From positions 1 to 28,408 of the IMG/VR virus record IMGVR_UViG_3300023210_000163: a DNA stretch of 28,408 nucleotides. One strand, given 5' to 3'. Shown in pieces: positions 7,944 to 26,150 of this stretch; position 1 is the first letter of the stretch; each line of letters begins with the position of its first letter. A program made the translations under genes and the position numbers. Under the pieces are notes generated by a model, which was not told the DNA's origin, did not search any database, and was given only the letters and a program-made list of their open reading frames with translations. This DNA comes from a virus.

Positions 7944-9350
7944 ATGCTAATTAGAACATATATCGATAAAAATAATACTATTATAAGAAATACTCAGATT
8001 AATACGGGTAGAAATCCTATCGCTGAAATATATTATGGTGGTAAAGAATCAGTAACTGACTACACTAGACACTTACTTTATTTTGATATTGTAGATTTAC
8101 AAACTAGATATTCCGCTGGTACATTAGGTGACTTATCTAAAGTAGTACATACATTAAGAATGACAAATAGTTCATTCTTTGATAAAGATTTACAAGCTCA
8201 AAAATTATTAGATGGTAAACAAAGGACATCGTCATTTGATTTAGATTTATTTAGAGTTAACAAAGAATGGGATGAAGGTTGTGGATACGACTATCAACAA
8301 GTATTAAGTTTTGAAGCGGAAGACAATATTACTTTTGTACAATCAGCTAGTAATTGGTTGAACTCTACTACGACTACCCCATGGGATGATGGTGGTGTCT
8401 ATTCTGGTTCACCGTCAGGAATTACAGTGGCAACACAACACTTTGATAAAGGTAATGAAAATATTTCAATGGACATTACTGATGAAGTTAATAGTTTAAT
8501 AACTGGTGGTACAACAAACTATGGTTATGGTATAGCGTTTGAAAGAGATTTAGAGTTAATAATTAAAAGTCCATCACAGTATGTTGGGTTTTTTACTAGA
8601 CATACTCAAACATATTATGAACCATTCTTAGAAACAGTTTATAACGACCCAATTAGAGATGACAGGAAGAACTTTTATAAGGGTAAGGTTAATAGGTTAT
8701 ACTTTTACACTAATATAGGTGGAGAACCCACCAATTTAGATAATAACCCTAGTGTAACAATAAAAGACGAAGATGGAAATGTATTTTCAGCTATTACCTC
8801 CGCACAAACCATACAAACCACCACAGGTATTTATTACGCTGATGTATTTGTACCAGTTACGGAAGATGATTGTGTTTTATTTACTGACACATGGAGTGAT
8901 ATTAATATAAACGGTATTAGTCGATCAGATGTGACGTTGGATTTTGAAGTTAAGTCAGATGATGAATACTATAATTTCGGTGATAGTGAATCTTTACCCA
9001 TAGAGTATATGGTATCTTTAAGTGGTATTAAAAGAGATGAAAAAATTAAAAGGGGTGATAAAAGAAAAGTGTTTGTAAACGCTAGACTTCCTTATACAAT
9101 TAATCAGTCAAGTGTTATAGATGGTTTACAATATAGAATGTGGATTAGAGAAGGTACAACACAAGTTAATGTTATCGATTGGGAAGATGTTAATAGATCG
9201 TTTCTTAAAAATTATTTTGTTTTGGATACCTCTTGGTTAATCCCTAATGAATATTATATTGATATTAAGTTAACTTCTAATGAATTGGTTAAGACATATA
9301 CCACAAAACTAAAATTTAGTGTTGTGAATCAGGTGGATAATCTACATTAA
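7944..9350 (+). CDS. Beta-rich virion protein, probably tail or fibre (DNRLRE/CBM-like N-terminus)
   Basis: The 468-residue protein starts with a segment that looks like a jelly-roll domain of the DNRLRE/CBM type: RHLLYFDIVDLQTRY (42-56), then KVVHTLRMTNSS (66-77), and an aromatic/Gly/Thr-rich loop region to about 230 with ISMDITDEVNSLITGG. Residues 240-345 (NRLYFYTNIGGEPTNLDNNP onward) and the end both look like Ig-like or BppU-like beta sandwiches, as in fibre-associated proteins. It directly follows the gp5 hub gene with its own candidate promoter. A tail-fibre, baseplate-periphery or sugar-binding role is inferred. Its last 35 bases overlap the 3' end of the opposing gene. Confidence 0.55.
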   Translation: MLIRTYIDKNNTIIRNTQINTGRNPIAEIYYGGKESVTDYTRHLLYFDIVDLQTRYSAGTLGDLSKVVHTLRMTNSSFFDKDLQAQKLLDGKQRTSSFDLDLFRVNKEWDEGCGYDYQQVLSFEAEDNITFVQSASNWLNSTTTTPWDDGGVYSGSPSGITVATQHFDKGNENISMDITDEVNSLITGGTTNYGYGIAFERDLELIIKSPSQYVGFFTRHTQTYYEPFLETVYNDPIRDDRKNFYKGKVNRLYFYTNIGGEPTNLDNNPSVTIKDEDGNVFSAITSAQTIQTTTGIYYADVFVPVTEDDCVLFTDTWSDININGISRSDVTLDFEVKSDDEYYNFGDSESLPIEYMVSLSGIKRDEKIKRGDKRKVFVNARLPYTINQSSVIDGLQYRMWIREGTTQVNVIDWEDVNRSFLKNYFVLDTSWLIPNEYYIDIKLTSNELVKTYTTKLKFSVVNQVDNLH

Positions 9351-10209
9351 CTTTATTAATTTTTAATGGTTTGGCGTCAGATGGTAATTTAAACTTTGTA
9401 CTTTTGAGTTTCTTTATTACGTCTTCATAAATACCCATTAAAGTATCATTTACATTTTTTATAGATAGTGGTTTTGGAAGGGGAACTTCAAAAGACATCC
9501 AATCAGTAAGGATATACCCATATCCATCTCTGTTTCCGGGATTATCACCAACCCTTACATTAACATTTACATTAAATTTATCGGGGTCACCTTCATAATC
9601 GTATTTACCCTCTTGAGGTGTTTTTATTTCTTTAAATTTAACGTCCACCATAAGTAATCTATCATCAGTTTCAGTGGTACGAAATTGAATTTCATTCGGC
9701 CACTCACCAATTGAACCACGAGGAAGTGGAATATATAAAGTATACCCATGATTATTATCCCACATTGTTACTTCTCTATTTAGGGACGTTGACGATTTAT
9801 ACTCACCAAAGTCGTCTTCACTAAATTCTATATTAATGTCACCTACAATATCCTCCCTTTCAGATGGGGATTTATTAGTTAACTCTTTTTTAAACCCTTT
9901 TAAAAAGTCATAAGCGTGTCTAAAAAATATTTGACCACTATTTTGATTTTTTCTTAATGATTTATGATCACCAAATAATTTATCACCGTTATAGTAATAT
10001 GTTGACGATAATTCGTAGGCTAAATCATAAGGTATTTCGAATAACTCTATTAACCACACCGCAGCGTTCCATATATTAAAAGTTTTATAGTCGTGTGGAC
10101 CATATTCTTTATTTAGTACCCATAGAAGTCTTTTTTCTTTTGGGTTAAACTCATTTAACGTATCTAATAAATTAGATTCTAATAAAACATGTTTCTTTTT
10201 AATTCTCAT
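9316..10209 (-). CDS. Unknown protein with basic N-terminus and LLE motif; candidate capsid-internal protein
   Basis: The 297-residue protein opens MRIKKKHVLLES: a short basic segment ending in L9-L10-E11, which fits the [L/I]-x-E site of T4-type prohead protease. A helical region (about 15-110) with many aromatics follows, then a beta-rich region (120-260) containing TLYIPLPRGSIGEWPNEIQF (152-171). The family is not recognised. It is the last gene after the capsid gene and has its own candidate promoter 18 bases upstream, separated from gp23 by a hairpin terminator. I infer that it is packed in the head, because six other proteins near the head genes share the N-terminal pattern. Its 3' end overlaps the convergent + strand gene by 35 bases. 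Confidence 0.6.
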   Translation of the reverse strand: MRIKKKHVLLESNLLDTLNEFNPKEKRLLWVLNKEYGPHDYKTFNIWNAAVWLIELFEIPYDLAYELSSTYYYNGDKLFGDHKSLRKNQNSGQIFFRHAYDFLKGFKKELTNKSPSEREDIVGDINIEFSEDDFGEYKSSTSLNREVTMWDNNHGYTLYIPLPRGSIGEWPNEIQFRTTETDDRLLMVDVKFKEIKTPQEGKYDYEGDPDKFNVNVNVRVGDNPGNRDGYGYILTDWMSFEVPLPKPLSIKNVNDTLMGIYEDVIKKLKSTKFKLPSDAKPLKINKVNVDYPPDSQH

Positions 10210-10227
10210 ATGATTGCTAATGTAATA

Positions 10228-10235
10228 ATAAATAT
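10228..10235 (-). promoter_or_regulatory. Candidate late promoter element ATATTTAT
   Basis: Read on the - strand, ACATATTTATT lies 18 bases upstream of the start at 10209 and downstream of the gp23 terminator. Its presence after a terminator makes a separate promoter for this last gene plausible. Confidence 0.4.
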
Positions 10236-10247
10236 GTTATAAAACAA

Positions 10248-10277
10248 AAAAGGGTGAGAAATAAATCCCACCCTTTT
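10248..10277 (-). terminator. Hairpin terminator after the capsid gene
   Basis: On the - strand, AAAAGGGTGGGA and TCTCACCCTTTT pair into a 12-bp stem around a short AT-rich loop, ending in a U-rich run. It lies 24 bases after the gp23 stop codon. On the - strand the only imperfection is a G-U wobble, whereas on the + strand the same position is an A-C mismatch, so the hairpin is better formed in the capsid transcript. It probably ends or attenuates the head operon. Confidence 0.75.
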
Positions 10278-10300
10278 AATATATATGATATAAGATATTA

Positions 10301-12070
10301 CTATCTTAATTCATTAACATCAAATGTAACAACACCATCAACAGTAATCGTACCGTAGAAGCGGTTATTAACCATTTTTTTTGCGTATCTCGTCATAATA
10401 CCCTTCGTTGGTGCGAAGTTGAACGGATTTTGCAACGTTGGAGTAAGTTGTAATGGTACGTAAGGTGCGTAAATGTACCCTGTGTCCAATAAAGACTTAC
10501 CTTTATGTCCAATGATGATTGAGTTAGCTGGAGCGTAAGGATCACGATACACAGTGTAACGTCCTCCTAATGAACCTACTTTCTCAATACCCATATTGTA
10601 TTGATCTTGCTCTGGGTTAGCGTTTGATACGTGGAAGTATTCCAAATCATCAAAAATCGCTGAAACTTCAGAAGATACTACTACAAAGTTAGCACCACCT
10701 CTTAAAGTTGCTTTGTGAATTTGAGCCGAAATCTGATTAACTTTAGTAATCAACGTTTGATTCCACTCTTTCTGAGTGTAAGCGTTGAAACCACCGCTAG
10801 CAGTTCGTTTCCATCCATTATAATCCCATCTAGTTGCCCAAGCTCCACCGACTCTTAAATCTCTCAAGATCTCTCTATCGATTTCAGCCGCTACTTGTTC
10901 AGACAATAAAGCTGTTAATTCAGCTTCAGCATCAATGTTGTGGAATGCACTAACATCTTGTGCTAATTCAGGAGACCAAGTTGCTCTTAATTTTCTTTCT
11001 GTTACAGAAACAACAACCTCATCAAGTTCGAAAGATACTTCTCCCATTTCAGTTGCATATTCTAAAGATGCATACGTCATCCAAGATGGAGCAAAAGTGG
11101 CTGCAGTAACACTATCAAAAGTTCCTCCAATGTAACCATCGAAAGTACTAGCTGAACAACTAACACAAGCTGGAGTTGTAAGGTCAAGTTCAACTAACAA
11201 ACAACCACTAGGGTCACAAATGTCAGCACCGTAATCAACAATACCTCTTCCATATTTTTGTGCTACCAATCTAAATGGTACTGCACCATCAGCAGCAACA
11301 ACGTTATTTCCACTACTGTCACCAGCAACAATTGCTTTATCAGTAGTAATGTGTAATGAAGCTAAGAATGTCTCAGTGTCCATTTCATTACCATCTGGCC
11401 CTGTTAATCTACCAGCACCTGCATTGGTAAATCCAGTAATACACATTGTAACTGATCTCATAGACCCATCAGCCGCTAATGGTTGATTAGCGAATGCTGT
11501 GTCAACAGTTAATCCACTAGCATTTATAACCACTGGGTTAATTCCTGGTGCGGGTACTGTATGTATACTTGCCGTCCCTTTGGATGCATCAAACAATCCA
11601 TCATTATAGAAAATATCGTAAAGATTCTTTTCTTGTAATTGAGTTAGTGTTGAGTCACCACAAGCTGATATGACACATTCTGGTAATGAACCGTTTACAC
11701 TATTGTCCGTTCCGTTTAAACCAAAATGATCTCTACCTGATGTTTTTGGTACAAAGAAGAATAATTTTCCAATTGGCATGTTCATCGCTTGTACCGATAC
11801 GATATCATTTGCCAATAATTTTGAGAATACACGTCTTACGATTGGAAAGACTACAGTCTCAAATGAACCTGATGAGTTTGAACTCGTAGATTCGTTTAAT
11901 AGAGAAGATGCTTGGTTTTCATATAACTGAGCAATGTTCTCTTTTACGTGACCTTTTAAACCTTCTAGGAAACCAATTTTGTTCCACTTCGAAATAGTTT
12001 TAGATCTTATTTGTTTCAAGTGTTCAAGTCCTATATTTCCGACTTCACCTGAGTTTAATAAATGTCCCAT
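10301..12070 (-). CDS. 23: Major capsid protein (T4 gp23-like)
   Basis: The 589-residue protein is the main head subunit, HK97-fold by family. Its N-terminal part is basic and helical (KTISKWNKIGFLEGLKGHVK, 24-43). A prohead-protease site, LLNE (57-60), is followed by a Ser/Asn-rich segment and then IVRRVFSKLLANDIVSVQAM (about 77-96), which aligns with the conserved T4 gp23 stretch just after its E65 cleavage site. The mature protein would therefore start near residue 61. Other signals are VSFELDEVVVSVTERKLRAT (around 340-365) and VVVSSEVSAIFDDLEYF near 465. It is somewhat longer than T4 gp23 (521); the extra length seems to lie in a Gly/Asp/Cys-containing middle region (about 130-330). Codons look more GC-balanced than in neighbours, as expected for a very highly expressed gene. 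A terminator follows. Confidence 0.92.
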   Translation of the reverse strand: MGHLLNSGEVGNIGLEHLKQIRSKTISKWNKIGFLEGLKGHVKENIAQLYENQASSLLNESTSSNSSGSFETVVFPIVRRVFSKLLANDIVSVQAMNMPIGKLFFFVPKTSGRDHFGLNGTDNSVNGSLPECVISACGDSTLTQLQEKNLYDIFYNDGLFDASKGTASIHTVPAPGINPVVINASGLTVDTAFANQPLAADGSMRSVTMCITGFTNAGAGRLTGPDGNEMDTETFLASLHITTDKAIVAGDSSGNNVVAADGAVPFRLVAQKYGRGIVDYGADICDPSGCLLVELDLTTPACVSCSASTFDGYIGGTFDSVTAATFAPSWMTYASLEYATEMGEVSFELDEVVVSVTERKLRATWSPELAQDVSAFHNIDAEAELTALLSEQVAAEIDREILRDLRVGGAWATRWDYNGWKRTASGGFNAYTQKEWNQTLITKVNQISAQIHKATLRGGANFVVVSSEVSAIFDDLEYFHVSNANPEQDQYNMGIEKVGSLGGRYTVYRDPYAPANSIIIGHKGKSLLDTGYIYAPYVPLQLTPTLQNPFNFAPTKGIMTRYAKKMVNNRFYGTITVDGVVTFDVNELR

Positions 12071-12100
12071 TTTTTTTTTGAGTTTTAATTTATATTATTA

Positions 12101-13354
12101 TTATGATATTCTTTTCATTAAATCTTTTATTGCCACAATTTGAGGATCTACATAAGCTGTAGATTCATTTAAATCAGACTTCGAAGATTTAACAGTTTTA
12201 TTAACTTTATTTACAACAGACTCGCTAATTGGAGCTTTTCTATCTAATTCAGACTTAATAACCTTATAAATAGATTTAGACTCTTTTACTGAATCAGTAT
12301 TGTCAAACCTTTTAAGAATTTCCATTTTTTCTTTTTTAGTTGTCGAATGTTCAGTAAACAATCTATTTACGTAAGCTAAGTTAGTATTAAATAACGCCAC
12401 TTCATTGAGTTTGTCTTTAAATACATTAAGAGCTTTTTTGTATTCATTATTTTTACTTTTTAACTCTTTGTATTCTTTCATTATTTTTGTTTCAGAAACT
12501 GTATCAGTTTTTGGTTTTCTACGAACAACAGATTTACGTGTGTTTCTAGATTCAGAAGTTTGTCTATTTCTATGTCCACCTTTTCTTTGACGACCTTTAG
12601 TTCTAGCCAATGTATGATCTTCCTCCATTGGTTCTTCTTCTTCCATAGAATCATCTTCATCAGTTATTACCGATTCATCATCATTCATTTCGATTTCGTA
12701 AACAATTTCATCTTCGTCTTCGTCCATTCCGCAACCTTCACACACTCCATCATCTTCGTCCATCATTTCGTCCAAAGATTCCTTAATGTAATATTCTGCA
12801 CCAGTTTCATTATCTGTCAAATGAATTCCATCAGCATCTTTAACCACTTCAACTTCATCGTCTGGACCCAATTTCTTAAATACTGTAACAACTTCATCAT
12901 CTGAAGCCATTGTCATATCTAATACATCGTCACCCATACCTAATTCCATTCCCATAGGTTCAAGATCTAATTCTAGTTCTTCACCTTCACCACCGTCTAA
13001 ATCTAGATCAGTATCAAGGTCTAATTCTACGTCAGCCATTTCTTCACCATCATCTGGGAAATCCATAACGTCCATTTCTAACTCTTCAGATTCTTCTTCT
13101 TCAGAATCATCTGTTAATTCATCGTCAAGATTTAACTCAACATCTTCCTCATCATCTGCGGATCCTCCTAATTCAATACCGTCTAATTTAATAGTTTCTT
13201 CACCTTGTTCTCTCAAAGACGACTCTACGATACTCTCAATTTCCTTCGACATATGCGCCGAAAGCATTTCTTTCGTGTTGGCTTTTAAGGCATCCTCTAA
13301 AGACTTAGCGTCTAACAAAGCCTCTTCGATGATTGATTTTCTTTTTACAGCCAT
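12101..13354 (-). CDS. 22: Prohead core scaffold protein (T4 gp22-like)
   Basis: The 417-residue protein lies between protease and capsid genes, as T4 gene 22 does. It has a basic N-terminal helix with IIEEALL (8-14), a very acidic region (about 60-245), a basic patch (252-281), and a long C-terminal helix. That helix contains DKLNEVALFNTNLAYVNRLF (314-333), a segment I recognise from gp22-like scaffolds of environmental T4-like phages. Residues 150-193 (VVTVFKKLGPDDEVEVVKDA onward) may form a small folded domain. A CEGC pair at 205-208 is unusual. Many [L/I]-x-E sites along the chain fit the known destruction of the T4 scaffold by gp21 during maturation. The start has an A-rich leader. It is longer than T4 gp22 (269), mainly because of the acidic region. 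Confidence 0.8.
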   Translation of the reverse strand: MAVKRKSIIEEALLDAKSLEDALKANTKEMLSAHMSKEIESIVESSLREQGEETIKLDGIELGGSADDEEDVELNLDDELTDDSEEEESEELEMDVMDFPDDGEEMADVELDLDTDLDLDGGEGEELELDLEPMGMELGMGDDVLDMTMASDDEVVTVFKKLGPDDEVEVVKDADGIHLTDNETGAEYYIKESLDEMMDEDDGVCEGCGMDEDEDEIVYEIEMNDDESVITDEDDSMEEEEPMEEDHTLARTKGRQRKGGHRNRQTSESRNTRKSVVRRKPKTDTVSETKIMKEYKELKSKNNEYKKALNVFKDKLNEVALFNTNLAYVNRLFTEHSTTKKEKMEILKRFDNTDSVKESKSIYKVIKSELDRKAPISESVVNKVNKTVKSSKSDLNESTAYVDPQIVAIKDLMKRIS

Positions 13355-13411
13355 TTTAATTTTTTTTAAAAATTTATTTTATTATTTAAATACACCATAG
13401 TGCATTTTTTA

Positions 13412-13419
13412 ATAAATAT
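13412..13419 (-). promoter_or_regulatory. Candidate late promoter element ATATTTAT before gp22
   Basis: On the - strand GCATATTTATTAAA lies 57 bases upstream of the scaffold start, within the 104-base gap after the protease gene. The distance is longer than for other copies, so the leader would be unusually long. Confidence 0.35.
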
Positions 13420-13458
13420 GCAGTAAAAGATAAAAAACTTATTTAAAGTTGATTTTTT

Positions 13459-14148
13459 TTAATCTAGTAAGAAGTTATTTAATGAATTTGTTAAGATAAT
13501 ATCTTCATTTTTCTTATTAGACTCTGACATCTGTTGTTCTTGAGATGGTTCTTCATTATAAATCCAAGAACCTGGAGTGGATGGTGACGTTACAATGTCC
13601 CAACATATTAATTCATAATCATCTTGTACAATGTTCTTACCATTTTCTTTTTCTAATGATCCGACACCTCTTGATGAAACACCTATTTTTAATCCTTTTC
13701 TAATATAATTAGCAACTCTATCACCTTCACAGGAAATAATCCCTAGGTTAACAAACCCCGGTGACATAATAATTTCAAGTTTACCCATTAACACATTACC
13801 TTCCCACCATAAGTCTACAACATTATGAGCTATTCTACTTACAGCAACAATGGAACTCTCTGGGTGATCAGCTTCACCCATTGCACGTTTTTCTTTAATA
13901 AGTTTAAGGTAATTTTCAGCTTCCCTCCTTAAGAGATCTTCAGGATATATTCTTTCGTTTTTATTCTCTGTCCCATATTTCTGCATTACAGCGTACACTA
14001 TTAAGGGATCTTCAATAACTTGTCGTCCTGGTGTTAACTCACTAGCTTCATTAACAAAGTTTTTATTATCTTTAGGGGAAATGTATCCTGCGTCATATTC
14101 GATTAGGATACCTTTTTTATTGATTTCGTTTTTCTTAATTATTTCCAT
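13459..14148 (-). CDS. 21: Prohead maturation protease (T4 gp21-like)
   Basis: The 229-residue serine protease matures the prohead by cutting scaffold, capsid and internal proteins after [L/I]-x-E. The family's catalytic His is seen in GEADHPESS (His95), and the catalytic Ser in KIGVSSRGVGS (Ser158 or Ser159). WDIVTSPSTPGS (183-194) matches the conserved strand and loop after the Ser. Length fits T4 gp21 (212). The N-terminus contains ILIEYDAG (14-21), and the polar tail after about 200 may be removed by self-cleavage. It lies directly before the scaffold and capsid genes in transcription order, and the [L/I]-x-E sites at the N-termini of several neighbouring proteins are its likely substrates. 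Confidence 0.9.
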   Translation of the reverse strand: MEIIKKNEINKKGILIEYDAGYISPKDNKNFVNEASELTPGRQVIEDPLIVYAVMQKYGTENKNERIYPEDLLRREAENYLKLIKEKRAMGEADHPESSIVAVSRIAHNVVDLWWEGNVLMGKLEIIMSPGFVNLGIISCEGDRVANYIRKGLKIGVSSRGVGSLEKENGKNIVQDDYELICWDIVTSPSTPGSWIYNEEPSQEQQMSESNKKNEDIILTNSLNNFLLD

Positions 14149-14167
14149 AATAATGATATACTTTAAT

Positions 14168-14176
14168 TATAAATAT
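14168..14176 (-). promoter_or_regulatory. Candidate late promoter element ATATTTATA before gp21
   Basis: On the - strand GGTATATTTATAATTAAAG lies 19 bases upstream of the protease start, in a 46-base gap. Its position and orientation match the copies before other units. Confidence 0.42.
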
Positions 14177-14194
14177 ACCATTACTATAAAAACT

Positions 14195-14632: not shown

Positions 14633-14724
14633 CCATATGTTTTTATTTTTTTATTATTAATATATGGTAAATATAGTGATAATATATAACAAAGTCAATT
14701 TAATAAAAGTGGTAACATATATTC

Positions 14725-15504
14725 CTACTCAACACTTAAAGATACAGATTCTTTAAGGTCATAAACTTTATTTATATCGTTAATAAAGTTTTCGTTGTCG
14801 AAGTTCATATTTAATAATTTGTCTTTAACCCTAAGTAATTGATCTTTTAGGGTTACATCAGTAGACTCGGTTACCCTGTTATCAATAATATCAATACACT
14901 CTCTTTTTAAAGTGTTATAGGTTTCTTCCTTATCTTCATCATTACCATTTAATATGGTTTTAATGATTCCCTTTTCAGATTCACTAATGTTAGAGTATTT
15001 ATCATTAAATTTGTTAACAGATATCTTAGTTAAAACACTTGGTGGTAATTCAGAATCTATTCTCTCATTTGTAACTTCTACCTCTTTTTCTAACATTAAT
15101 CCTTTAATGTGGTTTATAGATTCATTAATTTTATCTATAGTTGTAGCGGTTTTTGTTGTCTCTACTAAAAATTTAATATGAGAATAAAATTCATTATTTT
15201 CTTTAACAATGTTCTTACCATTTAAAAGTTTAAATAGTTTTTCATTACCCTTCTCCAATTTCTTCTTATCTAATGATTTTAATAATGAAATGTTTTCTTT
15301 AATATAGTCTTTAGCTTCCGAAGTGTCATCGAACTTCTTAGTTTGTAAATTTTTATATATTAGGTATTGATCAGATAAAGTATTATTTTCTTTAATTAAT
15401 TTAATAAATTTAGAAAATAGTTTTTTACCACCTTTTTCTTTTTTTAATACAGACTCTATTACAATATCTTTAAATGTATCTTTTATATTTCCGAAATTTT
15501 CCAT
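14725..15504 (-). CDS. Helical, [L/I]xE-rich protein downstream of portal; candidate prohead core protein
   Basis: The 259-residue product is nearly all helix and rich in Lys, Glu and Asn. It contains several sites of the prohead-protease type (INES near 125-128, MLEK near 136-139, further LxE or IxE sites) and an N-terminal DIVIES that is close to the pattern. It lies between portal (gp20) and protease (gp21), where T4 has the core proteins gp67 and gp68. These proteins help form the scaffold and are digested on maturation, so a similar job is inferred here. There is no sequence match that I can recognise. A candidate promoter sits 10 bases before the start, next to a perfect A/T palindrome. 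Confidence 0.55.
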   Translation of the reverse strand: MENFGNIKDTFKDIVIESVLKKEKGGKKLFSKFIKLIKENNTLSDQYLIYKNLQTKKFDDTSEAKDYIKENISLLKSLDKKKLEKGNEKLFKLLNGKNIVKENNEFYSHIKFLVETTKTATTIDKINESINHIKGLMLEKEVEVTNERIDSELPPSVLTKISVNKFNDKYSNISESEKGIIKTILNGNDEDKEETYNTLKRECIDIIDNRVTESTDVTLKDQLLRVKDKLLNMNFDNENFINDINKVYDLKESVSLSVE

Positions 15505-17534: not shown

Positions 17535-19331
17535 TTACTTAATACCAAATAACCAATTGTATTCACCATTATCATTATTGTCATTATTTGGTTGTGTTGG
17601 GTGATAAGTTGGGGTATTACTGTAAAAAGGGTTAGTATATTTTTTATTAACCTTATCAACCTCACTTGGTGAATTAGTGTTAACCCACCCCTCTAACATT
17701 GCCTTTGTTTGTTTTTCTATTGTCTCTAATTTTTTAAATGTTGTTTGTACAACAAAAAGTGGCATCGCTAGCGCCATTATTATATCATCATGGTACCCAT
17801 CCATATGATCTGGTCTACCATTTCTATATACAAAAGTCTTTAACTCAGAAATCAATCTAACTGACCTAATAATTGTTTTACTTTCTCTAATATGTTCTTC
17901 TAAATCACTTACCATTTGTAGTCTACTACTACCAACATTAAACCCAGGAACCTTCTCACCCTGTTTATAAACACTTTTAGCGTACTTTTCACTTAATTTT
18001 CTATTTTTAGGGTCATCATAGTGAAGATGTGTGTATCCCATTTCTAATAATTTCATTACAGTAGAAACGCCCATACCTCCAGTTATATCTACAACTGTAT
18101 AAGCCTTATAAAGATTACCATATTTATAAACTATTTCCGCCAATAAATCGGGTGGTAATTTATACTGGAACTCGGCCACTTGTTCTAATCCATCAAAATC
18201 TAATATCACTATAGTAGAACTATCTTTCCCATCACCTCTAGATACATCTACCCCCATAATATATTTATGACCCTCTTCTGGTTCTTTCCATATCCACATA
18301 GACTTTTCCATTTCTGCCATATATTTTGGGTCTTTAACATAATTTTCATTCTGGTATTCAATATACTCATCGTCTATAACATTACCACCAGAACTAACAA
18401 ATGACACATCTAATTCTTGTGCAATTTGTTTTTTATCCCCATTCATATCCCTACACATTTCTTCATACCAAGGGGAAGAAGCTTTCCAACCCTCTTTAAC
18501 CATTACATCATAGTCGTTGATGTTGTTGGCGTTAGTTTCATATGTTTTACCACTATATTCCCATCTTAAATTTTCTCTACCAATACTCTCACAAACAATT
18601 ATTTCTTCCTCACCTCTTAACCACCTTAAATTTCTATTATATCTTATATCTTCATGCCACCTCATTTCAATAATTTTAAAGTTATTGTCACCTTTTTTGG
18701 CGCCATCATAAGTTCTATAATATAATGCGTCTTGACCATTAGGTGTAGATATTAATGTCACTTTACCACCAGTACCCAAGGAGGTTAATGCGGCACCAAA
18801 CACCTCAGCACCATTATCAATAAACGCAGCTTCATCCATTATCAAAAATGTTGGTGTGTACCCCCTCAACGCATCTTTCGATGTTGCTAAAGCTTTAACC
18901 TCACATTTAGTAGACTTAGTTTTTATATGTCCCTTAGCTTCAATATCTAAATAAGATTCATTTTCTTCTACTCCCCACACCCACGATGGTATCTGATCAG
19001 TAAAGTCTTTAATTTTTTTAAGAAATTCTTGAGCTAATGTTTGTTTATTCGCCAATACCAGAACTTTCCAAGGATTATTTGGATCACAAAACGCAATTTT
19101 AACGGCAATATATGCTGCGGTAGTTGTAGACACACCAGCTTGTCTTGGTTTAGTAACTATGTTACGGTTATTTTCTTCATAAGATTTAATTATGTCTCTT
19201 TGTTTATGAAATAATTTAAAGGGTACGTACCCTTCTTGAGTTAAATCATAAGTTTTTAGGAATGTTTCTATGGCATATATAGGGTCACTTAAACATTTAG
19301 CGAATATTTTTAATTTTTCATTTCTATCCAT
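17535..19331 (-). CDS. 17: Terminase large subunit (T4 gp17-like)
   Basis: The 598-residue protein is the DNA-packaging motor: N-terminal ATPase and C-terminal RNase-H-fold nuclease. The P-loop is VTKPRQAGVSTTTAAY (59-74), where the usual GKT is GVST, a variant found in phage terminases. Walker B is FLIMDEAAF (162-170), with D166 and E167, and the coupling motif is STPNG (195-199). The nuclease acidic residues are seen in MGVDVSRGDG (D362), VVDITGGMG (D415) and DGYHDDIIMALA (D515 and D516). Length is close to T4 gp17 (610). The C-terminal 30 residues are Asn/Pro-rich. The gene lies 10 bases after its upstream neighbour and before the portal gene; the T4 sheath and tube genes that normally lie between them are absent. 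Confidence 0.93.
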   Translation of the reverse strand: MDRNEKLKIFAKCLSDPIYAIETFLKTYDLTQEGYVPFKLFHKQRDIIKSYEENNRNIVTKPRQAGVSTTTAAYIAVKIAFCDPNNPWKVLVLANKQTLAQEFLKKIKDFTDQIPSWVWGVEENESYLDIEAKGHIKTKSTKCEVKALATSKDALRGYTPTFLIMDEAAFIDNGAEVFGAALTSLGTGGKVTLISTPNGQDALYYRTYDGAKKGDNNFKIIEMRWHEDIRYNRNLRWLRGEEEIIVCESIGRENLRWEYSGKTYETNANNINDYDVMVKEGWKASSPWYEEMCRDMNGDKKQIAQELDVSFVSSGGNVIDDEYIEYQNENYVKDPKYMAEMEKSMWIWKEPEEGHKYIMGVDVSRGDGKDSSTIVILDFDGLEQVAEFQYKLPPDLLAEIVYKYGNLYKAYTVVDITGGMGVSTVMKLLEMGYTHLHYDDPKNRKLSEKYAKSVYKQGEKVPGFNVGSSRLQMVSDLEEHIRESKTIIRSVRLISELKTFVYRNGRPDHMDGYHDDIIMALAMPLFVVQTTFKKLETIEKQTKAMLEGWVNTNSPSEVDKVNKKYTNPFYSNTPTYHPTQPNNDNNDNGEYNWLFGIK

Positions 19332-19341
19332 AATAATTCAT

Positions 19342-20202
19342 TTAAAACGCTACTACCTTACCTTCTTCCCAAGCTTCATAATTGGGACCTAATTTATATG
19401 TTACATTAGATCCACCACCAACCTTTTCTATGATACCAGAATGATTAGCAGCTGACCAAAAATGTGAATATTGTCCACCAGAATAATGTGACCCTATATA
19501 ATCTAAAAAACCTCTCTTTGTTTTTTTTATGTCACTTATATCTTTCATATAATTTATTAAGTCCCTAATCATACTATCATCTTTTCTATTAAAACTATAC
19601 CCATTTGATTTATTAACTAATGTTAATTCATTTTCTTTGGTAATTTTATTTACAACATCAAGTATTTCGGTGTGAAATCTATATTTTGTTCTATTATTAA
19701 ATACTGATAACCTTTTTATGGCTTCCACACCCGAATAGGTATTTAGGATATTATCAATAACCAACTCACTTTCATTCATCATCTGGGAGATTACCCTTGT
19801 ACTCCAATAAGACGTTGCATTACCCCAACCAACGAACTTATTATTTAATGAAAATAAACTATTAAACCTTTGGTATGGGTTAACCATATTCATAATTCTA
19901 CCATATTCTGATTGTAAGAAAAACTCAACTATCTCACTATATTTATATCTATCCACAACAACATCTTCATCAATACCCCCCCAATCAATATTATACATTG
20001 TTTTATATAATAACTTATTATTTTTTATATCGTTTAAAGTAAGTTTATAAGTATTAAAAAATGAGTTCATCACCCTTATTGGTGTAGCACCTTTAATACC
20101 TTCAATAAACGCCTCAACCAATGGTGTAATGTCTTTATTAAAATTTAAAGTAGTTTCTTTAATTAGTTTACGATATTGTACCTCTGTTAATCTAATTTTC
20201 AT
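19342..20202 (-). CDS. Unknown protein with RLTE...LIKE N-terminus; candidate capsid-internal protein
   Basis: The 286-residue protein starts MKIRLTEVQYRKLIKETT. This short basic helix holds two prohead-protease-type sites, L5-T6-E7 and I14-K15-E16. Similar RLTE...IKE starts are, as I recall, common on unrelated proteins of Bacteroidota phages. The rest is mostly helical with many Asn, Tyr and Lys, and ends in KKTKRGFLDYIGSHYSGGQY (about 227-246) and a Gly-rich beta segment that could be a small winged-helix-like domain. It lies directly before the terminase gene (10-base gap) and one base after its upstream neighbour, so the three are one operon. Function unknown; packaging into the head is inferred from the N-terminus. 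Confidence 0.6.
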   Translation of the reverse strand: MKIRLTEVQYRKLIKETTLNFNKDITPLVEAFIEGIKGATPIRVMNSFFNTYKLTLNDIKNNKLLYKTMYNIDWGGIDEDVVVDRYKYSEIVEFFLQSEYGRIMNMVNPYQRFNSLFSLNNKFVGWGNATSYWSTRVISQMMNESELVIDNILNTYSGVEAIKRLSVFNNRTKYRFHTEILDVVNKITKENELTLVNKSNGYSFNRKDDSMIRDLINYMKDISDIKKTKRGFLDYIGSHYSGGQYSHFWSAANHSGIIEKVGGGSNVTYKLGPNYEAWEEGKVVAF

Positions 20203-20203
20203 T

Positions 20204-21307
20204 TTAAATATTTCCTTGTATATTATAATTAAAATATTCCTCAGTTTTTGTTGAGTCTGGATAAAAATATCCCATATCTGGAGAACTTAACTCTTCATCT
20301 TCATAATCTAAAACTTGTGATAACATAGTTACATAGTCACCATGATATTCTCCCGGCATTTCAGCTTGTGCCCCAATAGCTGAAATCATATATTTATAAA
20401 ATATATCGGTAATGTCAAAACGTATTACCTGACCTTTAATATTACCCTCTTTGTCTTTAACCTCCTCCCACTTACCTTTAGAACCTAAAAATCCTTCTAT
20501 TTCATCTTTCAAGTTACCAAATATTTCATCTTCAGCAGACTGTTCATACGCCCATCTGTATTGACTTGTTAATTCACTACGTAAATCGTTAAAAATATCT
20601 TCTTCATCTATTAATCTTAATATGGTTTCAGTGTCATTTACCATATCTTCTGTTAATATATACCCATGTTCGTCATCCATAGAAAACTCACTCATTTCTT
20701 GACCGATAAAATCACCTTCTTTAATGTGACCTTTTATATGGGTTATAGTTTCTTCATTAAGGTTATCAACAACATCACTTTCCCAATCAGCGTCAAAATA
20801 ACCATATAATTCAGCCCAATCTTCACTCAGCACCCTCTCAACCGTACTTTGATCATCTTGTCTAAACAACATCGTAAACTCGTCCCAACGATCAACTACT
20901 AAATAAACCCTATCCCCTTTTTTTTCTATATCATGAAAATTTTGTGGGAAAGCGAATTCGTTTTTAATATATTTATCGAACCACCCAGACTTTTCTAATA
21001 AATCAACAATATCCTCCCCATATAACCTTGAAGTCAAATCGTCAAAAGTGACATATATTAATGGGTCCTCACCTTTACTCATTAAGTAGTTAAATAAGAT
21101 ACCATATACGTCACCATCATCGATATTAAAATCTGACGGTATCATATGTTGTAACATCTCTAATTTTTCACCATAACTAACATTATCCTTTTCAAGTTCC
21201 GATTCACCCAATTCGTAATCTAAATACTGAAAAACACTGTTTTTAAATTTTTTGTATTTATCTAAATCTATGTATTCTAACAATATATTTTTAATGTTTT
21301 TTACCAT
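20204..21307 (-). CDS. Unknown acidic protein with NILLEY N-terminus; candidate capsid-internal protein
   Basis: The 367-residue protein starts MVKNIKNILLEYIDL, a short basic segment with an L9-L10-E11 protease-type site. The remainder is strongly acidic and aromatic (many Asp, Glu, Tyr and Trp, for example SEDWAELYGYFDADWESDVV, about 160-179), with no motif that I recognise. The acidity could help it coexist with packed DNA or mimic it. It begins a unit: a hairpin terminator (21334-21362) and a candidate promoter lie directly upstream, and the next gene begins one base after its stop. Confidence 0.6.
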   Translation of the reverse strand: MVKNIKNILLEYIDLDKYKKFKNSVFQYLDYELGESELEKDNVSYGEKLEMLQHMIPSDFNIDDGDVYGILFNYLMSKGEDPLIYVTFDDLTSRLYGEDIVDLLEKSGWFDKYIKNEFAFPQNFHDIEKKGDRVYLVVDRWDEFTMLFRQDDQSTVERVLSEDWAELYGYFDADWESDVVDNLNEETITHIKGHIKEGDFIGQEMSEFSMDDEHGYILTEDMVNDTETILRLIDEEDIFNDLRSELTSQYRWAYEQSAEDEIFGNLKDEIEGFLGSKGKWEEVKDKEGNIKGQVIRFDITDIFYKYMISAIGAQAEMPGEYHGDYVTMLSQVLDYEDEELSSPDMGYFYPDSTKTEEYFNYNIQGNI

Positions 21308-21313
21308 CTTATA

Positions 21314-21322
21314 TATAAATAC
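21314..21322 (-). promoter_or_regulatory. Candidate late promoter element (GTATTTATA)
   Basis: On the - strand GTAAGTATTTATATATAAG lies between the hairpin terminator and the ATG at 21307, only 6 bases from the start. The first base of the core differs from the other copies. Location just after a terminator supports a promoter. Confidence 0.38.
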
Positions 21323-21333
21323 TTACCATAAAT

Positions 21334-21362
21334 AAAAAATCCCACCAAGAGTGGGATTTTTT
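21334..21362 (-). terminator. Perfect hairpin terminator, probably bidirectional
   Basis: AAAAAATCCCAC and GTGGGATTTTTT form a perfect 12-bp stem around the five-base loop CAAGA. Because each arm ends in an A-run or T-run, a U-tract follows the stem on either strand. It lies 20 bases after the stop of the 474-residue gene on the - strand and before the next promoter, so it separates the upstream structural-protein operon from the terminase operon. Confidence 0.85.
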
Positions 21363-21382
21363 ATTATTATCATTTACAAAAA

Positions 21383-22807
21383 TTACATATATTTATGTAA
21401 CTTTGCAACAGTTTCAAAATCACCGTTATCTAAAGCGTCATTAATTAAGTCTTCAATTTCTCTTCTAGACATTTCAGAATAGTCAACATCTTTAGGTTCT
21501 TCTTCTACATCATCTTCTACTTCAATACCTAAATTATCTAACACATCACCCATATCATTGTAACCTGTATCATCTATCATATCGTCTAAACCTTCACTTG
21601 GTTCTTGATTGTGTAAATCTTTTAATGTTTTAATAACTTCTTTACATTTTTCACTACCTACTAATATTTCTTTCATAAATGAATGAAATTGTTTAGCTGG
21701 TAACTTACTTAATTCATGAAATAACCATTGCTTAATATCATAATCATCTGGGTCAATACAATCTAAGAATTTTTCCCACATACCAGGACCTAATCTCATT
21801 CCCCATATCTCACCTTCTACTGTGTCAGCTTTTTCAATAACCTCAGTTTGTTCTTCAAAATCTAAGTGTCCATCAGCCCAATTAATTGCTGATAATTCTA
21901 AAGTACCTTTAATAAGTTCATGTACTAAAAGTGGGAATACCCAAGCTTTAGCAACAACAACGGGGATTTCATCACCCTCTTCCACATCCACTTTTTCCAT
22001 TTCTTCTTCTTCATCCTTATCTTCTGCTTTTTCCGCTTTTCTCCATTCAATTTCTTCAGTACCTCCAACACCACCACCCATTGCACTTTCAGGTATAATC
22101 CAATATTGGAAATCGGCTAATGACATAAGTTTACCATATAAAACCATAAGTCTTGGGTTTAATTTATCTAATTCGTCAGCTACCATATGAAAAATGTAAT
22201 GACCTTTTTTGGAAGCTCCTTGCATTAATGCGTTTATAATTCTTCTTTTATCTACCTCCATCTCTAACTGTTCCATTCTTTCAGCACTTTTTGGTTTTTT
22301 AGGGATGTCAAAACTAGAATCGGAGTCATCTTCTTCTTCCTCTTCATCATCATTAAACTTTAAATCAGTACCTGGAGGGGAGAGGGTTGCATCTAACATC
22401 TGATCAGGAATATCAAATTCTTCGGATACTATATCCACAGCCAATTTTTCTAACGCATCTTTATGGTTAGTTTCTATTTGACCAACTTCTTGCATTATTG
22501 AGAACATCTCTGACATCATATTAGGGTTAATGTTTTGAACCCCATGATATCTTTTTACTTTATTAATAATTTCTTTAAATCTCTTACTGGCTAATTTTTC
22601 CGAATAGTTTTGATTTTCTGATCCAGATGGTACGGATTTACTTTTACCGAAAATGTGCTCACCACTTCTTAATTTTCCTTCAATATCTGGATTCATTCTC
22701 TCAGGGTGTTCAGGGTCATATTCGATTGCTTCTGTAAGTCTATTAGTCCTAAGTTTCTCTTTTAGAATTCTTTTAGTGACTTTGTTTATAATATTTTTTC
22801 TCATCAT
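21383..22807 (-). CDS. Probable virion protein with basic LTE-type N-terminus; unknown function
   Basis: The start is placed at 22807 (474 residues), because the longer open frame to 22852 would run into the preceding gene; the next ATG follows an A-rich leader eight bases after that gene's stop. The N-terminus (MMRKNIINKVTKRILKEKLR, then TNRLTEA) is a basic amphipathic helix ending in L24-T25-E26. The rest has a Glu/Asp-rich stretch (about 155-170), a second one (about 270-290), helical parts with WVFPLLVHELIKGTLELSAI (about 300-320), and a C-terminal SRREIEDLINDALDNGDFET. I recall similar proteins in environmental T4-like phages, without known function. The hydrophobic part may bury in an assembly. 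A terminator follows. Confidence 0.6.
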   Translation of the reverse strand: MMRKNIINKVTKRILKEKLRTNRLTEAIEYDPEHPERMNPDIEGKLRSGEHIFGKSKSVPSGSENQNYSEKLASKRFKEIINKVKRYHGVQNINPNMMSEMFSIMQEVGQIETNHKDALEKLAVDIVSEEFDIPDQMLDATLSPPGTDLKFNDDEEEEEDDSDSSFDIPKKPKSAERMEQLEMEVDKRRIINALMQGASKKGHYIFHMVADELDKLNPRLMVLYGKLMSLADFQYWIIPESAMGGGVGGTEEIEWRKAEKAEDKDEEEEMEKVDVEEGDEIPVVVAKAWVFPLLVHELIKGTLELSAINWADGHLDFEEQTEVIEKADTVEGEIWGMRLGPGMWEKFLDCIDPDDYDIKQWLFHELSKLPAKQFHSFMKEILVGSEKCKEVIKTLKDLHNQEPSEGLDDMIDDTGYNDMGDVLDNLGIEVEDDVEEEPKDVDYSEMSRREIEDLINDALDNGDFETVAKLHKYM

Positions 22808-22815
22808 ATTTTTTT

Positions 22816-23553
22816 TTAATGTCCATGAATTGCAGTTGTCCACATCAACCAAGATTCTTTAGCTAACTTCTCAAATACCCTTTGTACGTTCCTAGTTTCC
22901 ATATCACCATCCCTATTTTGTATCCTTATCATAGCGGTTCTAATTAATATGTCTCTAATTTTTTGTTTATTATTTAATAAGTAGTTTATTATTCTTAATT
23001 GTTCTTCTAATGATTCTATTTCTGATTCATTATCATCTTCATAATCATCTTTAAGTTCTTCGATCTGATATTCAATAGATTCAATGTCTTGTCTTTGACC
23101 ATATAACCACCTTTCCATATCTTTCTTAGTCCAGTTAAGTAATGGGTGAGCACCAAACATATTAAGGAGACCACTTTCTCTAATATATTCTAAATATCTA
23201 ACCACATCTCTTCGATCATGATTATCCATTTCGGCTACAATCTGAGGACCTCTGTTTCTGTTTTCTTTTACGATATCTTTTTTTAATATTTTTTTAACTC
23301 CACCACTTTTTTTAAAATTAATGTACTCCATTAATTCCCCTTTTTTCATTTTGGGGTTAGTGGATTCTTTTTTAACTTTTTCTGGTAAGTTTTTAAAGTT
23401 AGGGGTATCATCAGAAAATTCCTTAGCTCTATCACACCAGTCCCTTTCTTCTTTATTAGATGCGTCATCACATTTAGCATAAAAATATCTTTGTTGCGCT
23501 TTAGAGGCGAACTTTTCATTAATTAAACCTTTTACAATGTCCCTCTTCTTCAT
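22816..23553 (-). CDS. Unknown protein with GLINE N-terminus and SKAQQRYFYAKC motif
   Basis: The 245-residue protein begins MKKRDIVKGLINEKFASKAQ: a basic segment with I11-N12-E13, directly followed by SKAQQRYFYAKC (17-28). This short motif is similar to the SKAQ(Q/M)RxxxA element that I recall on many phage proteins, often near head genes. The middle has KMKKGELMEYINFKKSGGVK (about 69-88) and the C-terminal half is one long, charged coiled coil (about 130-190). The gene lies one base after its upstream neighbour. I infer a capsid-internal or head-associated protein; no enzyme motif is visible. Confidence 0.6.
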   Translation of the reverse strand: MKKRDIVKGLINEKFASKAQQRYFYAKCDDASNKEERDWCDRAKEFSDDTPNFKNLPEKVKKESTNPKMKKGELMEYINFKKSGGVKKILKKDIVKENRNRGPQIVAEMDNHDRRDVVRYLEYIRESGLLNMFGAHPLLNWTKKDMERWLYGQRQDIESIEYQIEELKDDYEDDNESEIESLEEQLRIINYLLNNKQKIRDILIRTAMIRIQNRDGDMETRNVQRVFEKLAKESWLMWTTAIHGH

Positions 23554-23554
23554 T

Positions 23555-24160
23555 TTACTTTCTAGAGTTTAGAAATTTTTTGAGTAAACTTCTTGTAGAT
23601 TCATTTGTGTATTGGACTTTATTCATACCGACATCTAATTTCTTTGTATCTAACCCACCACTATCAAGTTTAACATTTAATTTTTCAATATCATCTACAT
23701 CTCCCAAGTTCCAATTAGTTACATTCATATTTTCTTCTTCAGACACCATATCGTCATTTAAATCTAATACACCATCACCGTCATCATCTTGATCAACACT
23801 ACTTGCGATACCGTCATTATCTCTATCATAAGGACCATATTTACCACTTTGTGCGTCAACTGCCATAAATTCTTCACCAGAACCTTTAACAGCGTCAAAT
23901 ATTTCGTTACCATATAACTTATATAATCTCTTAATAATAGCTGCTGGATTTTTTCTCATATATCTAAGAACCGATGGTGGAATTTCTTCTCCATATTTTC
24001 CAAATACATTCCTAACACCTTGTTCTCTAGGTGAAGATTTATAATCTTTTCTACTATAAGTGTCTCTCATCTCATGTTGTTCATCTAAATAGTTTTCCAT
24101 TAACTTACGTCTAGTGGCTCTTTTGATTTCGTTTTCGTAAATTTTTACTTTCTTTTTCAT
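23555..24160 (-). CDS. Protein with thrombospondin-type-3-like calcium loops; candidate capsid-internal protein
   Basis: The 201-residue protein starts with a basic helix (KKKVKIYENEIKRATRRKLM, 2-21) that contains L20-M21-E22 and, just after, L25-D26-E27, both protease-type sites. Residues 110-137 contain two aspartate-rich loops, YDRDNDGIASSVDQDDDGDG (111-130) then VLDLND, matching the DxDxDG pattern of thrombospondin type 3 and related calcium-binding repeats. The rest is charged and probably disordered, ending in a helical NESTRSLLKKFLNSRK. A sister gene 400 bases upstream (24561-26150) carries the same kind of loop, so the pair probably arose together or share a binding role. Stop and start spacing (one to two bases) puts it in the same operon. 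Confidence 0.6.
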   Translation of the reverse strand: MKKKVKIYENEIKRATRRKLMENYLDEQHEMRDTYSRKDYKSSPREQGVRNVFGKYGEEIPPSVLRYMRKNPAAIIKRLYKLYGNEIFDAVKGSGEEFMAVDAQSGKYGPYDRDNDGIASSVDQDDDGDGVLDLNDDMVSEEENMNVTNWNLGDVDDIEKLNVKLDSGGLDTKKLDVGMNKVQYTNESTRSLLKKFLNSRK

Positions 24161-24162
24161 TT

Positions 24163-24561
24163 TTATGTGTTTATTAACTCTTTATTATAATTTAATACTA
24201 TATCTTTTTCATATAGTTTGCTATTTACTGATTCAATATCTTCCCCAAAAGAGAAAAACAATCTTTTTTCTGGATATTCATCATATCCTTCCATATTTTC
24301 CCAAGACATAGCCACAATACCATCCACAGCGTCCCACATTGCGAATGAATCTGATTCTTGAACCAAATCTAACTTTAATGTGGTGTTCAATAACCCTGTC
24401 TCTTTAACAAATCTACCTTCTGGTGGTTCTGGATTCCCAGAAGATGGGTACGAATCCCATCCCTCACCGTCAATATCTTTTACTACATCTGAAAAAAGGA
24501 ACTCATAAATGTAATTCCCTTTCCAGTTTTGACCAATTTTATTTATGTAGACTAATTTCAT
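24163..24561 (-). CDS. Unknown conserved-looking small protein
   Basis: The 132-residue protein is globular-looking, with alternating strands and helices. It starts MKLVYINKIGQNWKGNYIYE and holds GEGWDSYPSSGNPEPPEGRF (about 32-51) and FAMWDAVDGIVAMSWEN (about 73-89). The pattern is familiar to me from other T4-like phages, but I have no functional name for it. It lacks the basic [L/I]-x-E N-terminus of its neighbours. Its ATG overlaps the preceding stop by one base (TAATG), and its stop is two bases before the next ATG, so it is translationally tied to the two calcium-loop proteins on either side. Confidence 0.6.
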   Translation of the reverse strand: MKLVYINKIGQNWKGNYIYEFLFSDVVKDIDGEGWDSYPSSGNPEPPEGRFVKETGLLNTTLKLDLVQESDSFAMWDAVDGIVAMSWENMEGYDEYPEKRLFFSFGEDIESVNSKLYEKDIVLNYNKELINT

Positions 24562-26150
24562 TATCTAAACATACCTTTTCTTCTAAATGAACGTCTAGGT
24601 GGTTTAGAATTACCTTTTCTATCATTAATAGCCTTTATTTTAGGTTTTACTTTAGGTTTCTTAATGGTTCTCCATTTATCACCTTCACCTGGTTTAGTAG
24701 TTGGTTGTTTAATTCCTGGTTCCTTAACAGGTGCTTCAGTACCCATAATAGAATCAAAATCTAATTCAATATACCCTTCACCTTCTGACCCCATTTCAAA
24801 GTCTAAACTTCCATCACCGTCAGCGTCCATATCTAATCTGTTTGGTATTTGATCACCATCCCTATCTAAATCTCTTGTTGCTGAAAGATAGTCTTGTCCT
24901 GTTGCGATAGCATCCATAACATCCATATCTTCATCTAACATATACTCGTCTCTATCGAACTTACCATATTTTTTATGAGACATATTGTGATGTTCATTCT
25001 TACCACAAGATTCACAACCTTCTCCTAAACATTGTTCACAAACTCTATGATTTTCTTTTAACACCCTTTTTAGTGATTTCTTTGTTGCGTTTTTAAGTAA
25101 AGATTCCATTAATTGTTTTTTTGAAAAAACTTTAGATTCTTTTATTTCTTCTTCAGATTCTGCCAGTCCTTCTCCACCATCATCAGCGAATGGATCTTCA
25201 ACATCACCTTCTTCAGCGTCTAAATCAACAACCTCTTCGTCATCTGTTGCGAATTCGTCACCTTCACCATCTTCCTCATCTTCACCTTCTATTTTTGATA
25301 TAATATCCTCAACATCTTCATCAGGAACTTCATCCCAATCAATTGCTGAAATAATAGAATTAATAACGTACTTATCTAATTCTGCGTCTGGCTCATCTTT
25401 ATCTCTTAATAGTTGACCAATTTTACCAGTATATTTTTGTATTTTCTTTGTGGTTTCATCGCCATCTTCTCCCATTCCTTCTTCATCTCCCATATCGTCT
25501 CCCATATCGTCTCCCATATCGTCTCCACCATCATCAGCGAATGGATCTTCACCTTCATCTTCCATACTGAACTCATCTACTTCAACTTCATCTTCTACTG
25601 GTGGAGGTGCTGGTGCATCTACCTTAATTACAGTTTTCTCATTAACCTCTTCCTCCTCATCTATTACTATTTCTTTCCCCTCTGGATTTTGTTCTTTTTC
25701 ACCATCAACCTTTACAGGTCCGTCTATTTCGGTTTCTTTAACCACTACCCCACTAGAGTTAGCTACCTTTACCTCAATACCGTCTGATTCGAAAAGATTT
25801 GTACCAACTTCAATACCATATGATTCATTCAACATATCAAACTTCATGTTTAAATGTTTCAACGCTTCAGCGTAAGAATGATATCTTTCATCGTATTTAT
25901 TTTGAATACCTCCTGAATAATTAAAATCTTCAGACATTAGTGTCCCAGATGTTTTTTCAGTTGTTTTAATAAAGTAGTTATGATTTTCTCTTATAATTCC
26001 ATAAATAATTCCGTTTGGACCTTTTTTTATGAAATCTATTTCAGAAAGTGAAGTACTTTCATTTAGTGTTGTCATTCTACCCATTAAGTCAGAAATCCTG
26101 TTGATTTGATCTTGTCCTTTTAGGGTTTTTGGGTTATTGTATTTTTTCAT
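24561..26150 (-). CDS. Large acidic virion-associated protein with zinc-finger-like motif, calcium loops and basic tail
   Basis: The 529-residue protein has a modular layout. The N-terminus up to L29-N30-E31 is basic and ends in a protease-type site. Residues 45-110 form a folded domain (NHNYFIKTTEKTSGTL, then FNYSGGIQNKYDERYHSYAE), which I recall at the start of structural-looking proteins of environmental T4-like phages. Residues 150-335 are very acidic and carry EDPFADDGG twice (201-209 and 318-326), plus a 12-base tandem repeat encoding MGDD. Four cysteines, C371, C374, C379 and C382 (CEQCLGEGCESC), form a DnaJ-like zinc-finger half. Residues 427-452 are thrombospondin-type-3-like calcium loops (DLDRDGDQIPNRLDMDADGD). 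A Lys/Arg-rich tail (493-529) may bind DNA. I infer a head-internal or core protein; the first two-thirds resemble scaffold in composition. The function is not recognised. Confidence 0.6.
   Translation of the reverse strand: MKKYNNPKTLKGQDQINRISDLMGRMTTLNESTSLSEIDFIKKGPNGIIYGIIRENHNYFIKTTEKTSGTLMSEDFNYSGGIQNKYDERYHSYAEALKHLNMKFDMLNESYGIEVGTNLFESDGIEVKVANSSGVVVKETEIDGPVKVDGEKEQNPEGKEIVIDEEEEVNEKTVIKVDAPAPPPVEDEVEVDEFSMEDEGEDPFADDGGDDMGDDMGDDMGDEEGMGEDGDETTKKIQKYTGKIGQLLRDKDEPDAELDKYVINSIISAIDWDEVPDEDVEDIISKIEGEDEEDGEGDEFATDDEEVVDLDAEEGDVEDPFADDGGEGLAESEEEIKESKVFSKKQLMESLLKNATKKSLKRVLKENHRVCEQCLGEGCESCGKNEHHNMSHKKYGKFDRDEYMLDEDMDVMDAIATGQDYLSATRDLDRDGDQIPNRLDMDADGDGSLDFEMGSEGEGYIELDFDSIMGTEAPVKEPGIKQPTTKPGEGDKWRTIKKPKVKPKIKAINDRKGNSKPPRRSFRRKGMFR
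25489..25524 (-). repeat. Three tandem 12-base repeats inside the acidic protein gene
   Basis: CCCATATCGTCT occurs three times in a row without change, and a partial copy follows. On the coding strand it encodes repeated Met-Gly-Asp-Asp in the acidic region (residues about 209-222). Exact nucleotide identity suggests recent slippage. Confidence 0.85.

Follow-up and report, generated by a model that had tools for sequence, protein, structure and literature searches.

Swappable N-terminal tags ending at a gp21-type cleavage motif mark probable prohead cargo in uncultured T4-like phages

Bacteriophage T4 carries the dissimilar internal proteins (IPs) IPI, IPII and IPIII under a short N-terminal capsid-targeting sequence (CTS; MKTYQEFIAE, cut before A). 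For packaging, the first 10 residues of IPIII are enough, and the prohead protease gp21 cuts at L/I-X-E (PMC9026906). Gp21 likewise removes a propeptide from the packaged ADP-ribosyltransferase Alt and from gp67 and gp68. SPN3US and phiKZ load large sets of ejection proteins into the head, and a diverged gp21-like protease cleaves off their N-terminal propeptides. These propeptides are mostly longer than 100 residues and end at A-X-E or S-X-E (PMC5694885); the diverged paralogs gp53 and gp54 have identical 15-residue N-termini, and a short tag swappable across unrelated bodies is not reported for giant-phage ejection proteins in that study (PMC5694885). Here, we analyzed IMG/VR record IMGVR_UViG_3300023210_000163, a 28,408-base fragment (the window) of the incomplete genome of an uncultured, distantly T4-like virus, together with its relatives. 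Proteins of unrelated sequence in these phages begin with short tags that end sharply at [L/I]-x-E, and these tags are probably capsid-targeting propeptides cut after the Glu by the S77 (gp21-like) protease.

The initial annotation of the window had assigned one capsid-targeting-like N-terminus to seven open reading frames (ORFs), all on the minus strand: 9316-10209, 19342-20202, 20204-21307, 21383-22807, 22816-23553, 23555-24160 and 24561-26150. The seven ORFs were found where it placed them, each with [L/I]-x-E in its first 31 residues, but the common N-terminus dissolved into a tag that we call A, variants of tags B and C, and family-specific starts. The tripeptide by itself carries little weight. 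With the Glu at residues 7 to 40 it occurs in 7/7 candidates and in 12/24 other window genes, and was rejected as evidence because half of the other genes have it; genome-wide, it is only mildly enriched at N-termini (e.g., 0.39 versus 0.28 in relative G002). Scored with a matrix trained on G002, the seven rank higher than the window's remaining 24 genes (Mann-Whitney p = 0.0007). Because similarity judged by eye had guided the choice of the seven, other genomes provide the stronger tests, and the case from the window alone is suggestive at most.

An unbiased comparison covered all N-termini within a genome, with pairs of homologous bodies removed and with internal and C-terminal segments as controls (score of at least 45). 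N-terminal pairs numbered 136 in G002 against 2 internal and 1 C-terminal, 200 in G025 against 10 and 6, 17 in G003 against none of either kind, and 13 in Flavobacterium phage immuto, again against none. The same scan of T4 returned two pairs, with no control pairs, and its top pair was ipII/ipIII, rediscovered without any profile. Two S77-free records gave 0 and 2 pairs versus 0-3 in controls. These counts are upper bounds, since ordinary homologs and signal peptides make up some of the pairs. A 304-kb relative has about 50 tagged proteins from several tag families, most of them ending in [L/I]-x-E, which strongly supports the earlier suggestions that the cargo set exceeds that of T4 and that tags mark cargo elsewhere in the genome. 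Among 46 tagged proteins of one phage, again from several tag families, the sole invariant column is a Glu. Immuto, one of the closest isolated phages in which a prohead protease is annotated, has shared N-termini of its own on unrelated proteins, namely MENFDLKKFLVENKLTxNSKILKE on four and MKKQILSEQFxRMQxLAGIITES on two; these tag families are different, and immuto has no tag B. The idea is thus testable in culture. The immuto loci with shared N-termini are L211 1803-2318 and 25061-25456, and L213 3806-4354, 11675-12139 and 17631-18931.

Among the relatives we distinguish tag A (MKIIITESQYKxIKE), tag B (MKKIIRLTESDLTRIVKRVIKE, about 22 residues), tag C (MKKLIKKILRE, resembling the second half of tag B), tag D (MNLNFQHIINE) and further tags such as MKKFLITEEEKSRILGMHKSA. 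In the window, 19342-20202 has tag A, while 20204-21307, 21383-22807 and 23555-24160 have B/C variants. Profile searching of related phages, a check proposed in the initial annotation, recovered tagged N-termini: hidden Markov models (HMMs) of tags A and B, with internal decoys for calibration, detect 41 of 369 ORFs in G002 and 15 of 115 in G003 (a near relative of the window's phage), but the window has only one (19342-20202), and G001, G004, G005 and immuto have few. In G003, the G002-trained matrix picks out 13 N-terminal sites, against 0.5 predicted from internal positions. Seven records of 242-412 kb contain 8-17 tag-B matches apiece. In G002, a family of paralogs (LxxLIKKVGFxSxxKIVGSLDKT) has also grown about eightfold and bears tag A (78977-79426, 166712-167158, 239222-242671 and 283644-284162), and bodies resembling it carry tag C in G025.

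Tag B illustrates how one tag serves many bodies. A 36-nt pattern encoding MKK-x-IRLTESDL at a start codon, which fixes 12 residues, occurs in at least 120 viral stretches versus two in 257 Gb of GTDB bacterial and archaeal genomes; the residue-reversed pattern, used as a control, gave 0 matches. The 129 unique ORFs with tag B yielded 127 usable bodies, which fall into 104 BLAST clusters. The tag ends at Glu22 in 105 and at Glu26 in 19 of 128 proteins, with I or L at P3 in nearly all, and conservation then stops; [LI]xE has a frequency of 0.93 at the tag end (tags scored) versus 0.007 per body position. In an alignment of 97 representatives, no column but E22 is nearly invariant once the 12 pattern-fixed residues are set aside. 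Tag codons have diverged (0.57-0.67 identity at same-residue sites) while the residues stay fixed, which points to selection on the peptide; copying of tags at the DNA level is not supported by such diverged codons. One of the two GTDB matches is an "Alphaproteobacteria" metagenome-assembled genome (MAG; L335 and its bin, G055) with several tag-B contigs and one contig encoding an S77 protease; the bin is probably contaminated by a misbinned S77 phage.

Conversely, one body may carry various tags. Tags are swapped in three families (20204-21307, 21383-22807 and 23555-24160). Homologs of the 20204-21307 body have class C (MKGNIKKILLEY), class A (MRVILSERQLKLIKEEN in L139 and L140, MARIKINPEQYKRLIIENE in L157) or class D tags (MNLNFQHIINES in L118 and G003), and among homologs of 23555-24160 that of L134 has canonical tag B (MKKIVKLTESDLNRIVKKVLKEQ) and that of L021 is intermediate. 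The comparative evidence, comprising 104 body clusters, swapping, an invariant P1 Glu, the presence of the S77 protease in most tagged records and the roughly 50 tagged genes of the 304-kb relative, strongly supports the proposal of a modular capsid-targeting propeptide at the N-terminus, ending at a gp21-type site. Tagged cargo is also found fused. In L115:5751-7511, a tagged kinase-like domain is joined to a body of the 19342-20202 family, and at the junction the inner body retains its tag and [LI]xE, devoid of the start Met. The similar fusion L094:8044-9990 keeps the inner tag and could reflect a lost stop codon, and L110:1615-4032 has two bodies in one ORF with the tag-end LNE at the junction. 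The three look as if they were polyproteins for the prohead protease.

Tags and protease occur together. Of the 30 tagged records that reach 84 kb or more, 24 contain PF03420 (14/15 of those exceeding 137 kb, 10/15 of the shorter ones), compared with 1 of 15 control records, which span 51-136 kb and were picked by a DnaB pattern; the controls are unmatched for lineage, so part of this link may be shared descent. By analogy with T4, a short basic helical tag would bind scaffold or core proteins and so bring unrelated proteins into the prohead core, where the S77 protease of the head cluster would cut directly behind the Glu of the tag-end [L/I]-x-E. The freed cargo would be left in the head and could enter the host with the DNA. 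By sequence, the tags are virus-specific and modular in both directions, with several unrelated families, many bodies per tag and, across phages, various tags per body.

It is unlikely that the tag is instead a helix retained on the protein to dock it in the virion, as a scaffold, portal or tail anchor. Such a helix would suit the tagged genes that lie among tail tube and sheath genes, and the peptidoglycan hydrolases among the cargo are expected in tails. It does not explain why tag B conservation stops exactly at the Glu of [L/I]-x-E, where unrelated tag families converge, why the maturation site of the major capsid protein (MCP) has the same motif, or why the P1 Glu persists where the docking part varies. 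Less probable again is a role in the infected cell unrelated to virions, whether partner binding, a compartment address or a degradation signal. The cargo is mostly small and without assigned function, one tag lies in a bacterial bin without S77, and the tagged gene islands of G025 are partly distant from the head cluster: they concentrate at 40-80 kb (28/70 ORFs) and near 13-17 and 100-112 kb, and none lies at 120-200 kb, where protease and MCP sit. An in-cell role would, however, leave unexplained the co-occurrence with S77, the match between the tag end and known protease specificity, and the choice of precisely the packaged ipII/ipIII pair by the same scan in T4. Coincidence in an AT-rich, K/E/I/L-rich genome in which [L/I]-x-E is common near N-termini accounts for the tripeptide in non-candidate window genes and for 22816-23553, but is very improbable. 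For the class of tags as a whole it is already contradicted by the positional controls in several genomes, the unmatched reversed pattern, tag swapping and the invariant P1 Glu, and it holds for single members only.

Several observations nonetheless weigh against capsid-targeting propeptides. Six of the 30 tagged records, one of 171 kb, have no detectable S77 protease, and these records are perhaps incomplete; a single tag lies in a Prevotella MAG lacking S77. The P1' residue of tag B is mostly Q, N or S, versus A or S in the MCP. Cargo bodies are often acidic (median isoelectric point, 5.8), unlike the basic IPs of T4, some tagged genes belong to the tail cluster of G003 (107.8-113.4 kb), and some tagged proteins are peptidoglycan hydrolases, enzymes usually assigned to the cytoplasm or the tail. 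Tag B is missing from the closest named phages, and a profile search for it found none in named huge phages, in immuto or in Microcystis phage Mel-JY01; virion proteomics covering tagged proteins, those of immuto included, was not found in the literature searched. A tblastn search of 23-residue tags against named phages gave no match even at E 10, with queries too short to be informative.

Among the seven window proteins, for which no convincing Pfam or PHROGs family match was obtained, four are well supported as tagged. The class A tag of 19342-20202 (20155-20202, MKIRLTEVQYRKLIKE before T) matches the class A/B HMM and is near-universal in 24 aligned homologs, with Glu16 nearly invariant, while the bodies of distant homologs are about 30% identical to that of the window. 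The body (19342-20154) was modeled by AlphaFold2 (AF2) with a mean predicted local distance difference test (pLDDT) score of 85, versus 62 for the N-terminal helix (residues 7-19), and its C-terminal part of about 75 residues resembles a winged helix; the many ArsR/SmtB-like matches have probabilities of 0.97-0.99 but E values of 0.2-0.6 and are weak. In 20204-21307, a class C-like tag (21275-21307, MVKNIKNILLE before Y) precedes a body (20204-21274) with no function assigned by Pfam or PHROGs; the tag-end Glu is kept in 24/25 homologs, although identity upstream of it is 0.35.

The ORF ending at 21383 had been listed from an upstream TTG, and the ATG at 22807 fits its homologs. Its variable, class B/C-like propeptide (22730-22807, MMRKNIINKVTKRILKEKLRTNRLTE before A) is replaced in the G002 homolog by tag B (MGNLTEKELDRIVNKIINE before A), and E26 is invariant in 32/32 homologs, whose propeptides are dissimilar and range from 7 to more than 26 residues. 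The helical body (21383-22729) is the most widely conserved of the tagged proteins, with 86 homologs in the loci examined and others in uncultured phages of 635 and 642 kb. Its AF2 model shows a low-confidence helix at residues 2-22, disorder across the predicted cut (residues 18-26) and a fold that becomes confident from about residue 30. A fold search with this model gave no PDB match at E ≤ 0.001, and neither of the two modeled proteins had a significant match. The divergent class B tag of 23555-24160 (24095-24160, MKKKVKIYENEIKRATRRKLME before N) has [LI]xE in 16/20 homologs and Glu in 19/20; the body (23555-24094) has a D-rich repeat (DRDNDGIASSVDQDDDGDGVLD) classed by eye only as calcium-binding-like. 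This repeat and that of 24561-26150 (DLDRDGDQIPNRLDMDADGDGSLD) resemble thrombospondin type 3 calcium-binding repeats.

Two further members are plausible. ORF 24561-26150 has a moderately supported family-specific N-terminus (26058-26150, ending NPKTLKGQDQINRISDLMGRMTTLNE before S), with LNE, LTE, INE or ISE before S, N or D among homologs and [LI]xE in 16/25. ORF 9316-10209 likewise has a family-specific N-terminus (10177-10209, MRIKKKHVLLE before S), with [LI]xE in 14/14 homologs, which is less diagnostic because the entire N-terminus is conserved. The seventh, 22816-23553, dropped out: its putative tag (23515-23553, MKKRDIVKGLINE before K) is not conserved, with [LI]xE in only 6/17 homologs. 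Homologs alternate between a tag-like start and the start MPFKSEKQRRWMHINEPEIA, as in G003 (28184-28867), and a short N-terminal module thus seems to have been gained or lost.

The T4-like head cluster also lies on the minus strand of the window. It comprises a terminase (17535-19331; 25-29% identity to T4-like phages and immuto), a portal-like protein (15541-17481), a prohead-core-like protein (14725-15504) between portal and protease, the position of gp67/gp68 in T4, the annotated gp21-like protease (13459-14148), confirmed by PF03420 over the cut-off (E 4.1e-24), an acidic protein (12101-13354) that is scaffold-like from its position between protease and MCP, and the MCP (10301-12070). The MCP propeptide (11891-12070) has its predicted cut at LLNE(60) before S, as annotated, and the maturation site [LI]-x-E before A, S or T was present in all 50 readable N-termini (the NQA anchor was found in 50 of 53 MCP relatives). 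The N-terminus of 14725-15504 contains FKDIVIE before S, with ILTES, ILSES, ILGEA or LLVEA at the same place in relatives, and 12101-13354 has an N-terminal IIE site before E, with [LI]xE at Glu10 in 32/41 homologs and Glu in 37/41. Relatives with 85-100% terminase identity are common in IMG/VR. Adjoining the tagged genes, 26554-27348 encodes a nucleotidyltransferase-like protein (GSLANYNWSKFSDVDLHI motif, by eye).

Nearly all of about 215 tagged proteins (three partly overlapping sets searched against Pfam, PHROGs and NCBIfam) have no assigned function. Single matches include phage lysozyme, PG_binding_1, NlpC/P60, CHAP, HD, M78 and leucine-rich repeats, and none of the families listed by Pfam was a replication polymerase, helicase, terminase or capsid protein. 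The peptidoglycan enzymes are compatible with ejection and also with tail or lysis roles. A tag-B protein on a 113-kb contig from the S77-free Prevotella bin (L336:6395-6955, beginning YHFTNLEGIYGILKSN) is ADP-ribosyltransferase-like (HYD1-type, E 0.006; motif by eye) and recalls T4 Alt, as a single weak case in a bacterial bin.

The CTS principle is already known, and class D tags (MKLTFKNIITE, MNLNFQHIINE) have a length and shape similar to those of the T4 CTS. T4, however, has one CTS type on three IPs, whereas these phages have several unrelated tag families, mostly longer (16-30 residues), on about 50 proteins in some genomes. Tags A, B and C differ from MKTYQEFIAE, and no Pfam or PHROGs match ties the seven proteins to IPI-III; at 10-31 residues and ending in [L/I]-x-E, the tags also differ from giant-phage propeptides. 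The literature searched, which covered few of the subscription journals, describes only the T4 CTS and the SPN3US propeptides as precedents; we found no description there of tagging on this scale, of multiple tag families, of tag swapping or of fused tagged cargo.

We tentatively propose, as a possibility rather than an expectation, that the head of large uncultured T4-like phages is a general delivery vehicle. About 50 swappable, tag-addressed proteins per genome, an open repertoire with tandem-tagged fusions released by the prohead protease among them, would be encoded in cargo islands and diversify as tags move to new bodies, and tag families may be different prohead addresses. If the tags are indeed capsid-targeting propeptides, the head cargo of giant phages, usually invisible for want of matches, could be listed from the first 22 residues, and hundreds of families without assigned function would be named as virion-packaged and probably host-entering. 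The tags would offer ready-made loading signals for protein delivery, and the proteins brought in before any phage gene is transcribed would become testable.

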